Source of the DNA: Anaerolineales bacterium
Lineage (GTDB): Bacteria > Chloroflexota > Anaerolineae > Anaerolineales > Villigracilaceae
Length of the DNA: 42,007 bases
Assembly (NCBI GenBank): GCA_017882125.1
Contig: JADGQC010000004.1
Coordinates: 1-42,007, forward strand
Reading direction: 5' to 3'
In this document: positions 12,425 through 31,835 of the stretch, piece after piece
Numbering within the stretch: the first letter of the stretch is position 1
How the letters are laid out: the number at the start of each line of letters is the position of its first letter
Notes under the pieces: model-generated
Database searches by the model: none
What the model saw: only the letters and a program-made list of their open reading frames with translations
Told to the model about the DNA's origin: nothing
Program-made: the position numbers and the translations under genes

Positions 12425-12499
12425 TCGGGGCGCCGGGAATTGAACCCGGGACCTCTTGCACCCCATGCAAGCGCGCTAGCCGGACTGCGCCACGCCCCG
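12425..12499 (-). tRNA. tRNA-Pro, anticodon GGG
   Basis: Reverse strand CGGGGCG...CTTGC-ATGGGGT-GCAAG...CCCGGGTTCAATTCCCGG-CGCCCCG-A; full cloverleaf, 75 nt. Confidence 0.95.
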
Positions 12500-15797: not shown

Positions 15798-15825
15798 TTG
15801 ACTGGAAACAATACCTTGTGATAAA
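15798..15825 (+). promoter_or_regulatory. Putative sigma70-type promoter for the leader ORF / GNAT operon
   Basis: TTGACT (15798) and TGATAAA (15819), 15-16 nt spacer, upstream of a strong Shine-Dalgarno sequence. Confidence 0.4.
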
Positions 15826-15866
15826 CTTCACTTGCTCGAAAAATACAAAGAAAGGAGGCGCACTTC

Positions 15867-15959
15867 ATGGTTCACAGTAATCCCATCACCCTTGCACGTG
15901 TCCGCGCCGCTGCTCCCAGCGGTCAGACCGTACCTACGCGGAGTGCGCCTATTGCCTGA
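15867..15959 (+). CDS. Putative leader peptide MVHSNPITLARVRAAAPSGQTVPTRSAPIA
   Basis: 30-codon ORF absent from the supplied track; AAAGGAGG at 15851-15858, 8 nt before ATG; followed within ~20 nt by an intrinsic terminator. Confidence 0.65.
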   Translation: MVHSNPITLARVRAAAPSGQTVPTRSAPIA

Positions 15960-15979
15960 CTAGATACACGCAGTGTATG

Positions 15980-16013
15980 AAGGCCACGGACACTCCCTGC
16001 CCGTGGCCTTTTT
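15980..16013 (+). terminator. Terminator T1 downstream of leader ORF
   Basis: AAGGCCACGG (15980-15989) / CCGTGGCCTT (16001-16010), 11-nt loop, then T-rich tract. Confidence 0.88.
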
Positions 16014-16024
16014 CTTTCCCAAGG

Positions 16025-16056
16025 CGGTCATGGGCTAATCCATGACCGGTTTTTTT
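16025..16056 (+). terminator. Terminator T2, tandem to T1
   Basis: CGGTCATGG-GCTAAT-CCATGACCG followed by GTTTTTTT. Confidence 0.88.
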
Positions 16057-16088
16057 ACGATGTTTGGTCAGCGAAAGGAAGATAAACG

Positions 16089-17087
16089 ATGGAATCAATT
16101 TCTTTACCAAATGCTCTCTCTCTCCAGGGACTCACCTTCCGATGTTTTCGGGGGGAGACGGATTATCCGCATATGGCCGACCTGATCGCCGCCTGCAAGG
16201 TGAAAGACGGTGTTGAACGCAGCACCGACGTGGAAGATGTGGCCCGCACCTACCGCCACCTGGTTAACTGTGACCCGCAGACCGACATGCTCTTTGCTGA
16301 AGTGAATGGCAAGCTGGTCGCATACGGGCGCATCTGGTGGGAAAACCTTTTGGAAGGCATCACCCTTTACCATCCCTTCGGTTTTCTGCACCCCGCTTGG
16401 CGCGGGAAAGGCATTGGAAATGCGATGTTCGAAGCTGCCGAATTGCGGGCTCAGAAGATCGCTGCCGGTCACCCGAAAACGATGCCAAAATTCCTGCAGG
16501 TGGAACCACAGGACTCGGAAAAAGACCTCATTTCCCTGCTGGAAAGGCGCGGTTACAAGCCTGCCCGTTATGAGACACACATGGTTCGCGACCTGGGTGA
16601 ACCGTTTTCGGAGGCCCCCATGCCAGCCGGGTTGGAGGTTCGTCTGGTTCAACCCGGGGATGTCCGCCCGATCTTTGACGCCAGCAATGAGGCCTTCCGT
16701 GATCACTGGGGTATCCGCGACATGAGCGATGAGGAATTCAAAATGCAAATGGAAAGCCCGGAATTCCAGCCCGAAATATGGAAGGTAGCCTGGGATGGCG
16801 ACCAGATGGCCAGCGTGATCCATAATTTTATTGACCACAAGGAGAACAAGGAATACCAGCGCAAGCGCGGCTATACCGAAGGGATCTGTACCCGCCGTCC
16901 CTGGCGCAAAATGGGACTGGCCCGTTCCTTGCTCGTCCAGAGCATGCAGATGTTCAAAGAGATGGGGATGACCGAGACCGCCCTCAGCGTGGATTCTGAG
17001 AATATTTCGGGTGCATTTCGCCTTTATGAAGGCGTGGGCTATCGAAAAGTCATGCAGCAGATTTATTATCGCAAGGCGATGGAGTAA
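16089..17087 (+). CDS. GNAT-family N-acetyltransferase (two GNAT-like domains)
   Basis: FLHPAWRGKGIGNAMFEAAELRA in the N-half and RRPWRKMGLARSLLVQSMQMFKEMGMTETALSVDSENISGAFRLYEGVGYRKV in the C-half. Confidence 0.9.
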   Translation: MESISLPNALSLQGLTFRCFRGETDYPHMADLIAACKVKDGVERSTDVEDVARTYRHLVNCDPQTDMLFAEVNGKLVAYGRIWWENLLEGITLYHPFGFLHPAWRGKGIGNAMFEAAELRAQKIAAGHPKTMPKFLQVEPQDSEKDLISLLERRGYKPARYETHMVRDLGEPFSEAPMPAGLEVRLVQPGDVRPIFDASNEAFRDHWGIRDMSDEEFKMQMESPEFQPEIWKVAWDGDQMASVIHNFIDHKENKEYQRKRGYTEGICTRRPWRKMGLARSLLVQSMQMFKEMGMTETALSVDSENISGAFRLYEGVGYRKVMQQIYYRKAME

Positions 17088-17140: not shown

Positions 17141-17545
17141 ATGCAACTACGCTGTACTTACTGCCAGACTATGTTCGCCATCAGCCGCGAGGATATGCTC
17201 GCCGCCCTGGAACATATGGAAGAAAATAAACTGATCTTCTACGACGCCCACTGCCCAAAATGCCGCCGCGCCAACCGCGTGGAGCGCGCCCGCATGGAAC
17301 GCTTTTTCCCTGATTGGAAAAATGCCATCAAGACCATGTCCAAGGAATCGGCGAAAGTGGAAACGGCGGCTGATAAACCTGCCGCGAGCGCCGGAGCCAT
17401 GCCAGCCGCGAAAGCACCAAAAGCCGCCCCCAAACACGAGAAAAAACATACCCCCAGAAGCAAGACGGCGGAAATATCGAGCATCAAACCCGCGATTAAA
17501 ACATCCTCCCCGAAAGCGAAGCCGGCAGGAACGAAGAAGGGATGA
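17141..17545 (+). CDS. Zinc-ribbon protein with Lys/Ala/Pro-rich C-terminal tail
   Basis: CTYC ... CPKC pair; tail KPAASAGAMPAAKAPKAAPKHEKKHTPRSK...; AAAGGAG before ATG at 17141. Confidence 0.75.
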   Translation: MQLRCTYCQTMFAISREDMLAALEHMEENKLIFYDAHCPKCRRANRVERARMERFFPDWKNAIKTMSKESAKVETAADKPAASAGAMPAAKAPKAAPKHEKKHTPRSKTAEISSIKPAIKTSSPKAKPAGTKKG

Positions 17546-18150
17546 GGGTACGGGCAGTCTTCGTTGACTTTGGCGGTGTCATCATGCGCACCGAGGATAA
17601 AGGTCCGCGCAGCCGCCAAGCCGAACGCATTGGGATGACCTCCCGTGACCTGGAAAAGATCGTTTTCGAAAGCGATTCCAGCCTAAGGGCGTCCACCGGG
17701 GAGATCTCGGAAGAGGCACACTGGCAGGCTGTGTCGAAAGCATTAGGCGTCGACCGGCAGGAAGGTGAAAAGATCATTACCGAATTCTTTTCCGGCGACC
17801 GGGTGGATACCGTCCTGCTCGATTTCCTGCGCAGCCTGCGCCCGGACCGGAAAGTAGGTCTGATCAGCAATGCCTGGTCGGGGCTAAGGAAAGTTATCAC
17901 CACCAATCAGTTCGCGGATGTATTCGATGAAATGGTCATCTCCGCCGAAGTGGGACTGGTGAAACCCGACCCGCGCATCTACCAACTGGCGCTCGAACGA
18001 CTGGGCGTGCATCCCAAGGAGTCGGTTTTCCTGGACGATATGCTGATCAACGTGGAGGCGGCGCGCTCTTTGGGGATAAGCGCCATCCAGTTCACCCAGC
18101 TGGGAAGAACGCTGGAAGAATTAAAACATTTTCTGATTGATACAGGGTGA
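17542..18150 (+). CDS. HAD-superfamily hydrolase (HAD-IA)
   Basis: VFVDFGGVIMRTE, GLISNAWSG, EVGLVKPDPRIYQLALERLGVHPKESVFLDDMLINVEAARSLG; ATGA overlap with upstream gene. Confidence 0.9.
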   Translation: MRVRAVFVDFGGVIMRTEDKGPRSRQAERIGMTSRDLEKIVFESDSSLRASTGEISEEAHWQAVSKALGVDRQEGEKIITEFFSGDRVDTVLLDFLRSLRPDRKVGLISNAWSGLRKVITTNQFADVFDEMVISAEVGLVKPDPRIYQLALERLGVHPKESVFLDDMLINVEAARSLGISAIQFTQLGRTLEELKHFLIDTG

Positions 18151-18192: not shown

Positions 18193-19548
18193 ATGAACAT
18201 AAATCTTAATAACCGCCCGATCCTGAAAAACCTGAGAGAAGGGCTCATACTATGCCGTTCCATCGCAAGTGACGCGGATGCACTGGCTGAATTTAATTCC
18301 CGCATCCACAGCGATGAAGGTTTTGACAAACCCGACCTGCGCGTGGGCGAGTGGACGCGCGACCTGGTTGCCCGCCCCCATCCCTCCTTCCATGAAGACG
18401 ACTGCACGCTGGTCGTCGAAGCTGCCACGGGGAAAATCATCTCCTCGATGAATTTAATCCCGCAGACATGGGCTTATGAGGGCATCCCGTTTGGAGCAGG
18501 CCGCCCTGAATTGGTGGGGACCCTGCCCGAGTTCCGGAACCGGGGCCTGGTGCGCGCTCAATTCGAGGAAGTTCACAAATGGAGCGCGGAAAAGGATGAC
18601 CTCCTGCAGGGCATTACCGGCATCCCATATTATTACCGTCTTTTTGGCTACGAAATGGCGCTGGAACTGGGAGGCGGGCGTGCCGGTTTTGAACCCCAAC
18701 TCCCGGTCCTGAAAGAAGGCGAGAGTGAACCTTTCACCATCCGCGCGGCCAACGAGGCTGATATTCCCGTAATTATGGAAGCCTATGCGCATGGTTGCCG
18801 GCGCCGGCTGGTCACCTGTGTTCGTGACGAAGCTAATTGGCACTACGAACTGACCGGGATGCACGCACAGAACGTGGAGCGGCTTGAATTCCGCATCCTC
18901 GAACACCCCGGCACGCATGAACCGGTCGGTTATTTCACCCACCCATGGTACGACTGGGATACCGGGCTGGCTGCATTCCATTACGAGCTCAAGCCGGGTG
19001 TTTCCTGGCTGGAAACGACTCCCACCGTGGCGCGCTATTTGTGGAAGACGGGAGAAACCTACTCGAAGCGGGATGGGAAACCCGCCGCCCGCACAGTGTA
19101 CTGTTTCTGGTTCGGGAGCGAGCATCCGGCTTACGATATTTTCCGGGAACGGCTGCCGCGCCTGCGCGACCCGTATGCCTGGTACATCCGCGTCCCGGAC
19201 CTGCCTGCCTTTTTGCGCCAGGTTGCCCCGGCGCTGGAGCGGCACATTGCCGAGTCAGCGATTGTCGGATACAGCGGCGAGGCCAGGATCAGTTTCTATC
19301 GCTCCGGTCTGAGGTTGGTGCTCGACAAAGGCAGGCTGGTGAATATCGAAACCTGGATGCCTTGCCATGAGGACCAGGGCAATGCGGCCTTCCCGGACCT
19401 GTCCTTCCTGCAGCTGGTATTCGGTTACCGATCGTTCGAAGAACTGGAACAATCCTATGCCGATTGCACCTACAAGGACGATGAGAGGCGCTTGTTGTTG
19501 AGCACTCTCTTTCCAAAGAAGGCTTCATCGGTGATGTTTGTAACCTAG
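18193..19548 (+). CDS. Eis-like GNAT N-acetyltransferase
   Basis: VGTLPEFRNRGLVRAQFEEVHKWSAEKDDLLQGITGIPYYYRLFGYEMALEL followed by a long C-terminal region. Confidence 0.8.
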   Translation: MNINLNNRPILKNLREGLILCRSIASDADALAEFNSRIHSDEGFDKPDLRVGEWTRDLVARPHPSFHEDDCTLVVEAATGKIISSMNLIPQTWAYEGIPFGAGRPELVGTLPEFRNRGLVRAQFEEVHKWSAEKDDLLQGITGIPYYYRLFGYEMALELGGGRAGFEPQLPVLKEGESEPFTIRAANEADIPVIMEAYAHGCRRRLVTCVRDEANWHYELTGMHAQNVERLEFRILEHPGTHEPVGYFTHPWYDWDTGLAAFHYELKPGVSWLETTPTVARYLWKTGETYSKRDGKPAARTVYCFWFGSEHPAYDIFRERLPRLRDPYAWYIRVPDLPAFLRQVAPALERHIAESAIVGYSGEARISFYRSGLRLVLDKGRLVNIETWMPCHEDQGNAAFPDLSFLQLVFGYRSFEELEQSYADCTYKDDERRLLLSTLFPKKASSVMFVT

Positions 19549-19586: not shown

Positions 19587-20864
19587 ATGAAAACTTTCCT
19601 TCACTCCATTTTTAATCAGTTCCGCCTGCTTAACCGGCCTGCGCGCCTGTTCCTGGTTGCGCTGTTCCTGGACGGACTGCTCTTTGCAGGCTGGAACCTG
19701 TTCTTCAACCTGTACATCATCGACGCCGGGTACAGCCGGGATTTCCTTGGGCTGGTGAATGCCGCCCCAAGCCTTTCCGCGCTCCTGCTTGGCGTCCCGA
19801 TGGGATTGCTCTCCGACCGGATGGGCCGCAAGCGCGCCATGATGGTCGGCTTTGCCCTGGCAAACTTTGCCATCATCACCATGATCCTGGGTCGTTCAGA
19901 AGGAGTCATCCTGGCGGGAGCTCTCATGCTCGGCGTAACCTCGCAGTTATATGTTCTCAGCCAGGCGCCGTTCATGATGAAGACCTCCGACGACAAGAGC
20001 CGCGACGTATTGTTCAGTCTAAGTTTTGGAATGTTCCCTCTTGCCAGCACTGCCGGCAACTTCCTGGCAGGCTATCTGCCTGGACTGTTCACCCGCTGGT
20101 TCCACCTGGCAGGCAGTGTCGCGGCTTATCAAGCCGTGCTGCTGTTCTGCGTTGTCATCAGTTTCCTCGTCCTGGTACCGATCGCCTTTATCCACGAACC
20201 AAAAAAATCTGGGGCTAATGAAAAATCGGGATCAGAGGAACCCAGGAATTCGGTCTGGAAGGTGCTGCTCCGTCCCCTGACCCTGAAACTAGCCATTCCC
20301 AACCTGGTGATCGGTTTTGGCGCTGCCACACTGGTGCCCTATTTCAACGTCTTTTATGCCGAACGGTATAAGATGGGAGATTCCACGCTGGGGATCCTTT
20401 TCAGCCTCGGAGCCCTGCTGACCGGGATCGGCTGCATTATCGGCCCGCGCCTGGTGGGCAACCTGGGCGGTAAAATTCGGACGATAGTGCTGGGCCAGGG
20501 TGCCAGCCTGGTTTTCCTCCTGCTGATTGGCTTCTCCCCATGGCCGTGGCTGTCTGTGATCGGCTTTTTGGCGCGTGGCGCTCTGATGAACATGGTGGCC
20601 CCGCTGTTCGACGCCTTTGCTCTGGAACAGAGCCACGAGTCAGAGCACGGGGCGGTCAACAGCATCCGCAACCTTGCCTGGAACTTTGGCTGGGCGGTCG
20701 GACCGTATATTTCAGGTATCGTCCAGCAGCGCTACGGGTTTTCACCGTTGTTCGTGAGCACGGCGATTCTATATGCGCTTGGCATCGGCCTGACATGGAT
20801 CTTCTTCCGCCCACGTGCGATTCAGGTACCCATAGCTGGGCCGGTTATTGATGAAGCCATTTAA
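19587..20864 (+). CDS. MFS transporter
   Basis: 12-TM-like hydrophobic pattern; GVPMGLLSDRMGRKRAMMVGFALANF motif. Confidence 0.92.
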   Translation: MKTFLHSIFNQFRLLNRPARLFLVALFLDGLLFAGWNLFFNLYIIDAGYSRDFLGLVNAAPSLSALLLGVPMGLLSDRMGRKRAMMVGFALANFAIITMILGRSEGVILAGALMLGVTSQLYVLSQAPFMMKTSDDKSRDVLFSLSFGMFPLASTAGNFLAGYLPGLFTRWFHLAGSVAAYQAVLLFCVVISFLVLVPIAFIHEPKKSGANEKSGSEEPRNSVWKVLLRPLTLKLAIPNLVIGFGAATLVPYFNVFYAERYKMGDSTLGILFSLGALLTGIGCIIGPRLVGNLGGKIRTIVLGQGASLVFLLLIGFSPWPWLSVIGFLARGALMNMVAPLFDAFALEQSHESEHGAVNSIRNLAWNFGWAVGPYISGIVQQRYGFSPLFVSTAILYALGIGLTWIFFRPRAIQVPIAGPVIDEAI

Positions 20865-20868
20865 TAAG

Positions 20869-20907
20869 AATAAAATGTCCAGCAGTAAATCTGCTGGACA
20901 TTTTATT
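20869..20907 (+). terminator. Intrinsic terminator of the GNAT/MFS operon
   Basis: 17-bp perfect stem AATAAAATGTCCAGCAG-TAAAT-CTGCTGGACATTTTATT. Confidence 0.9.
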
Positions 20908-21094
20908 AAATATGGATTTCAATGCTGATTCCTCCCCTTAAATTTACATGCCATTCTTAAATCATAAAAGACTTTCATTAACCTCCCCACTCGTCCAGTT
21001 GACCAAAAGCTGAATCAGTCTTATAGTCTTACACGCCTCACAGATAAACGCCGATATTCTTACTGTGAATGGTAACTTAATTCAGGAGATTATT

Positions 21095-31711: not shown

Positions 31712-31835
<124 letters not shown>

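Follow-up and report, generated by a model that had tools for sequence, protein, structure and literature searches.

I propose that the operon leader described here, from an Anaerolineales bacterium (Chloroflexota), is a ribosome-mediated transcription attenuator in which three RNA strands compete for pairing and, in a tandem form, a further pairing passes the outcome on to a second terminator. I put the probability of this reading at about 0.85. The leader lies in the window, by which I mean the whole stretch of 42,007 nucleotides analysed (contig JADGQC010000004.1), and it is one copy of a family that is real, widespread, absent from Rfam and without description in the searchable literature. 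Comparison of sequences among loci shows the conservation of the leader ORF, the pairings 1:2, 2:3 and 3:4 (strands as numbered in Table 1), the promoter and the gene context.

In the window, AAAGGAGG at 15850-15857 is followed by an 8-nt spacer and then by the ATG of the mini-ORF at 15867. The mini-ORF and the two terminators T1 and T2 stand upstream of a GNAT gene, exactly where a first-pass annotation of the same DNA had put them. That annotation missed the strands that pair, namely strand 1 over the Shine-Dalgarno sequence, strand 2 where the ORF ends and strand 3 within T1, and also the cross-pairing between T1 and T2. The leader fold of the window is more stable than 200 of 200 dinucleotide shuffles (z = -4.25). 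The small hairpin ahead of T1 is possibly a pause site for RNA polymerase.

Table 1. Leader elements and downstream genes on contig JADGQC010000004.1.
Feature	Position	Strand	Remarks
Promoter, sigma-70-type, TTGACT-18 nt-TAAACT	15798..15827	+	consensus scan; equivalent site in homologous leaders
Shine-Dalgarno of mini-ORF and strand 1	15853..15866	+	pairing part AGGCGCACTT at 15856-15865; covariation in 1:2 helix
Leader ORF, 30 codons, MVHSNPITLARVRAAAPSGQTVPTRSAPIA	15867..15959	+	TGA stop at 15957-15959
Strand 2, GGAGTGCGCCT	15940..15950	+	encodes RSAP end of peptide; partner is strand 1 or strand 3
Small hairpin, ATACAC-GCA-GTGTAT	15963..15977	+	between mini-ORF stop and T1; near relatives only
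Intrinsic terminator T1	15982..16013	+	GGCCACGG-N11-CCGTGGCC (15982-16008) and U-tract
Strand 3, GGACACTCC	15988..15996	+	5' arm and loop of T1; antiterminator with strand 2
Strand 4, CCCGTGGCC	16000..16008	+	3' arm of T1; able to pair with strand 5
Intrinsic terminator T2	16025..16056	+	CGGTCATGGGCTAATCCATGACCG (16025-16048) and GTTTTTTT; U-tract present
Strand 5, GGTCATGGG	16026-16034	+	5' arm of T2
Two-domain GNAT acetyltransferase, operon gene 1	16089..17087	+	ATG at 16089
Zinc-ribbon-like protein	17141..17545	+	CxxC pairs seen by eye; no match in Pfam
HAD-family hydrolase	17542..18150	+	
GNAT acetyltransferase (Acetyltransf_9)	18193..19548	+	Eis-like at best
MFS transporter	19587..20864	+	weak similarity to multidrug/Tet efflux models

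The order of elements (sigma-70 promoter, strand 1 over the Shine-Dalgarno sequence, mini-ORF, strand 2, T1) is constant in 93 aligned loci. Of 91 homologous leaders, 85 are preceded by a promoter of the form TTGAC-N16-19-TRnnnT, where 0.7 would be expected. The mini-ORF, whose conservation in relatives the first-pass annotation had named as a check on its reading, is present in all 93 loci; it is 22-34 codons long, starts just after strand 1 and stops after strand 2. The reading frame across strand 2 is the same in 88 of 93 loci, and strand 2 therefore reads (P)SRSAP. The distance from strand 2 to the stop codon is 4-29 nt over all 93 loci and 8-14 nt in 84 of them, and T1 lies 17-35 nt downstream of the stop. 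The remainder of the peptide is variable, and between the strands both sequence and length vary while the frame stays open. Many of the peptides end V-D-R-stop or similar, past the paired strand, with Arg there in 56 of 88; slow termination at such an end could help to hold the ribosome over strand 2.

Two stretches are complementary to strand 2: strand 1, and strand 3 within T1. Double-sided compensatory changes are found in 14 of the 18 pairs of 1:2 and T1, in loci that were found with a covariance model that rewards these same two pairings, so that counts of loci lean to structure and are not fully independent of it. Within the T1 stem all 8 of 8 pairs show such changes, so that for T1 the covariation that the first-pass annotation had suggested looking for in both terminators is there. 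The covariation score of 1:2 plus T1 is 0.307, against 0.170 when shuffled and at most 0.111 in slid controls, and it exceeds every shuffle and every slid control. The pairings 2:3 and 4:5 form no part of the model. Matched duplex energies for 1:2 and 2:3 are better than 2000 of 2000 permutations across loci, a procedure that leaves shared ancestry in; for 2:3 the same is true when only the 40 loci whose strand 2 is a variant are considered. The 2:3 duplex has a matched mean of -17.1 kcal/mol, against -9.1 with shuffled T1 loops; that of the window, at -11.8 kcal/mol, is among the weaker ones. Co-varied examples of 2:3 are GAAATGCG with GCGTTTC (L116 and L152), GGAATGCGCC with GGTGCATTCC (L139), TAGTGCGCC with GGCGCACTA (L036) and TGAGTGCGC with GCGTATTCA (L031), strand 2 being given before strand 3.

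The extent of the family can be judged from several searches. Orthologues of the GNAT gene within the genus carry the same leader upstream, with two invariant blocks, AGGAGGCGCACT over the Shine-Dalgarno sequence and AGTGCGCCT at the end of the ORF. The pattern made of these two blocks matched 19 of 301 Anaerolineales genomes, and its reversed control matched none. In a named genome collection it matched 22 records, all from Chloroflexota but one from Hyphomicrobium (L070), which has neither ORF nor terminator and is set aside as chance. From 27 copies a covariance model was made that includes the 1:2 and T1 helices; it found a match in 274 of 400 Anaerolineales genomes sampled, with up to 4 copies per genome and a single copy in the window's own genome. 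In a phylum-wide draw the model matched 33 of 36 Anaerolineales genomes among those listed; the genomes from outside the order, about 364, served as its negative control and gave 2 matches. Both of these (L162 and L163) are also upstream of ABC-type transporter genes, and their 1:2 helices differ in letters with complementarity retained. Two weak matches, L164 and L165, were left out of the evidence, strand 1 being poorly paired or unlike; L164 in addition has no ORF start in place. An arrangement that recurs hundreds of times is not the work of chance.

Rfam gave no relevant family for the whole window, for a sensitive search of the leader or for six homologous loci. The open-access literature on attenuators in Anaerolineae and Chloroflexi yielded no description of this leader. 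Elsewhere in the window are a SAM riboswitch at 31712-31833 on the - strand (86 bits, well above the gathering score) and two tRNA matches, one at 12425-12499 on the - strand and one at 1-83 on the + strand that runs off the window's end.

How might such a leader work? Strands 1, 2 and 3 would compete for pairing. When translation is fast, the ribosome at the stop codon would cover strand 2, T1 would form, and the operon would be off. When there is no ribosome, 1:2 and T1 would both form, and the operon would again be off. A ribosome held at the start codon or the first codons would cover strand 1, allowing 2:3 to form in place of T1, and the polymerase would read through. In the tandem form, that of the window, strand 4, released from T1, would then pair with the 5' arm of T2 (4:5), and both terminators would fail together. 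Of this scheme I infer the ribosome positions, the inducer and the 4:5 relay.

Folding with the ribosome footprint held unpaired, a calculation at equilibrium and not cotranscriptional, is consistent with the model. With a ribosome at the start codon, 2:3 is predicted in 91 of 93 loci; with one at the stop codon, T1 is predicted in 91 of 93 and 2:3 in none; with no ribosome, 1:2 is predicted in 89 of 93 and T1 in all. In the window, a ribosome at codons 1-4 gives 2:3 and one at codons 5-21 gives 1:2, while in four other loci that were folded a stall as far as about codon 14-20 still gives 2:3. The predicted sensing range thus differs from copy to copy. The marks of an attenuator are found: an intrinsic terminator preceded by a promoter, a Shine-Dalgarno sequence and a short leader ORF; conserved and mutually exclusive pairings (protector, antiterminator, terminator); and a frame that is kept, with a stop codon placed so that a terminating ribosome would cover the shared strand. 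The first-pass annotation had proposed a leader-ORF transcription attenuator before a GNAT/MFS operon, and with ORF, frame, exclusive pairings and terminators conserved that much of its claim is supported; the specificity for macrolides that it inferred from an RVR motif is not.

The genes that follow the leader are predicted, purely by homology, to be resistance genes. In the window the operon probably ends at 20872-20908, past the MFS gene, where there is a strong inverted repeat with A/T tails; no leader of the attenuator type precedes the ABC transporter at 21065. Among the homologous loci, the first downstream gene belongs to an ABC cluster in 58, is a two-domain GNAT in 11, a RimJ/L-like GNAT in 11, an MFS transporter in 5 and something else in a few. 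The sorting relied on clusters of similar sequences and on gene length, with representatives run against Pfam, and in a few loci it may have passed over the true first gene. The 58 consist of 49 full exporters, often two in succession, and 9 DrrA-like ATPases with GNATs after them. Among the PDB matches of the exporters are heterodimeric multidrug transporters, YheI (BmrC) being one. The resistance-type gene context seen by the first-pass annotation in one operon is repeated downstream of homologous leaders. In one relative (L125:2-1918, - strand) an rpoB-like gene lies on the same strand after the leader and several short ORFs; it may simply be a neighbouring gene, or else an additional RNA polymerase beta copy within a resistance operon.

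The two terminators of the window are not found everywhere. A T1-like T2 with 4:5 complementarity occurs in 13 of 13 two-domain-GNAT loci, in 11 of 13 RimJ/L-like-GNAT loci, in 8 of 9 DrrA-type loci and in none of the 51 ABC-exporter loci (49 classed by gene and two placed by hand); a T1-like T2 occurs in 1 of 5 MFS loci. The 4:5 duplex, of the 3' arm of T1 with the 5' arm of T2, has an energy of about -12 to -20 kcal/mol, and matched 4:5 is better than 1000 of 1000 permutations. I consider it somewhat better than an even bet that there are two architectures in an order-wide family of stand-alone translation-stress switches, a relay attenuator in which one ribosome decision disables T1 and T2 together, mainly before acetyltransferase and DrrA-type operons, and a single form before ABC exporters.

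An alternative view is that T2 is a redundant back-up or some other stop, with regulation at T1 only or the operon driven from elsewhere. The arms of T2 resemble those of T1, so T2 may have arisen as a copy of T1 and the 4:5 complementarity may follow from that alone, and T2 is missing from exporter-type loci. However, antitermination at T1 would be pointless if a strong T2 that is not itself regulated still stood ahead of the gene, which is why I propose the relay, and matched 4:5 pairings are better than permuted ones. A strong promoter between T2 and the GNAT start at 16089 was what the first-pass annotation held would tell against its reading, and a consensus scan of that interval found no promoter-like site. 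T2 as a back-up is possible but doubtful.

If the relay and the three-strand switch respond to a ribosome held near the start codon, what holds it there? The peptide is variable outside strand 2, and for that reason I expect a signal more general than any single amino acid or drug motif. Most likely it is a general arrest of early elongation or of initiation, such as ribosome-targeting antibiotics cause. At the toiL uORF of E. coli, tetracycline and retapamulin stall ribosomes at the start codon (PMC12121999).

An attenuator of the trp/ilv type, in which starvation for an amino acid and the consequent shortage of charged tRNA stall the leader ribosome, would share the three-strand logic, and V, I, S, A and F abound in the peptides. 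But there is no regulatory codon run, residues 2-15 vary freely among loci, and the genes downstream are exporters and acetyltransferases, not biosynthetic genes; I find this unlikely. A little less likely again is the drug-specific arrest put forward by the first-pass annotation, in which a macrolide would stall the nascent peptide at R11-V12-R13, in the manner of ErmDL, and so switch the RNA. The RVR tripeptide does exist in the window, 20 of the 37 leaders that do not belong to the ABC-exporter class have a mid-peptide Arg with T, N, V, I or S after it, and strand 1 could still be covered if a second ribosome queued up close to the start codon. However, Arg/Lys-X-Arg/Lys occurs in just 13 of 93 peptides, the RVR residues are not conserved even within the genus (R-V-R, S-V-R, C-V-R, R-V-R, L-V-R), and for the window folding predicts that 1:2 persists when a single ribosome sits at codons 11-13, resulting in termination. 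I reject this reading on conservation. A metabolite riboswitch or protein-binding leader with an incidental short ORF would account for a conserved P1-like helix and terminator, but is very improbable in view of an interior that varies in sequence and length yet keeps its frame open (88 of 93), with no conserved aptamer core in the aligned copies and no Rfam match.

If general arrest is indeed what these attenuators sense, then there would be an order-wide translation-stress regulon in Chloroflexota, run by RNA switches in cis and not by a transcription factor, in a phylum where hardly any gene regulation is known to have been studied. Genes that carry the switch would be candidate resistance genes, and many GNAT arrays and ABC pairs that are now unnamed would gain a function. 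If true, the relay of the tandem form would show the passage of one RNA decision through two terminators. It also becomes testable whether a cell can sense ribosome arrest without recognizing the drug.

In the trp, his and ilv attenuators of amino-acid operons, three or four strands pair in mutually exclusive ways as read by the ribosome on the leader. The family described here differs from them in having no regulatory codon run and in preceding genes of resistance type. Closer in kind is bmrB-bmrCD of B. subtilis, where a leader ORF, intrinsic terminator, antiterminator and anti-antiterminator precede a heterodimeric multidrug ABC exporter that is induced by 50S inhibitors via slowed translation of the leader (PMC4191407). 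The mechanism is of the same kind, but bmrB ends at nucleotide 162 with the terminator inside the ORF, whereas the mini-ORFs of the present family end before T1. As judged from the description of bmrB, only the present family has a strand 1 that overlaps the Shine-Dalgarno sequence, serves several types of gene and, in some copies, has a cross-pairing T2.

The uORF attenuator of whiB7/wblC in Actinobacteria turns resistance on in response to translation inhibitors of many classes (Lee et al. 2022, as related in PMC12121999 and PMC13236596). As far as those accounts describe it, it too combines a short uORF with attenuation, but it controls a transcription factor, whereas here each resistance-type operon has its own copy of the leader. 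The toiL uORF of E. coli topAI likewise responds to general translation stress, but it acts on translation and Rho termination and not on an intrinsic terminator (PMC12121999). The tandem attenuators of Salmonella mgtCBR set more than one short leader ORF or attenuation element in series (PMC3641672); there are two leader ORFs there, and here a single one, followed by two terminators that a pairing relay is predicted to connect. The kind of switch is therefore already known. What is new is the family, the phylum, the strand 1 that overlaps the Shine-Dalgarno sequence and the predicted cross-pairing of T1 with T2.
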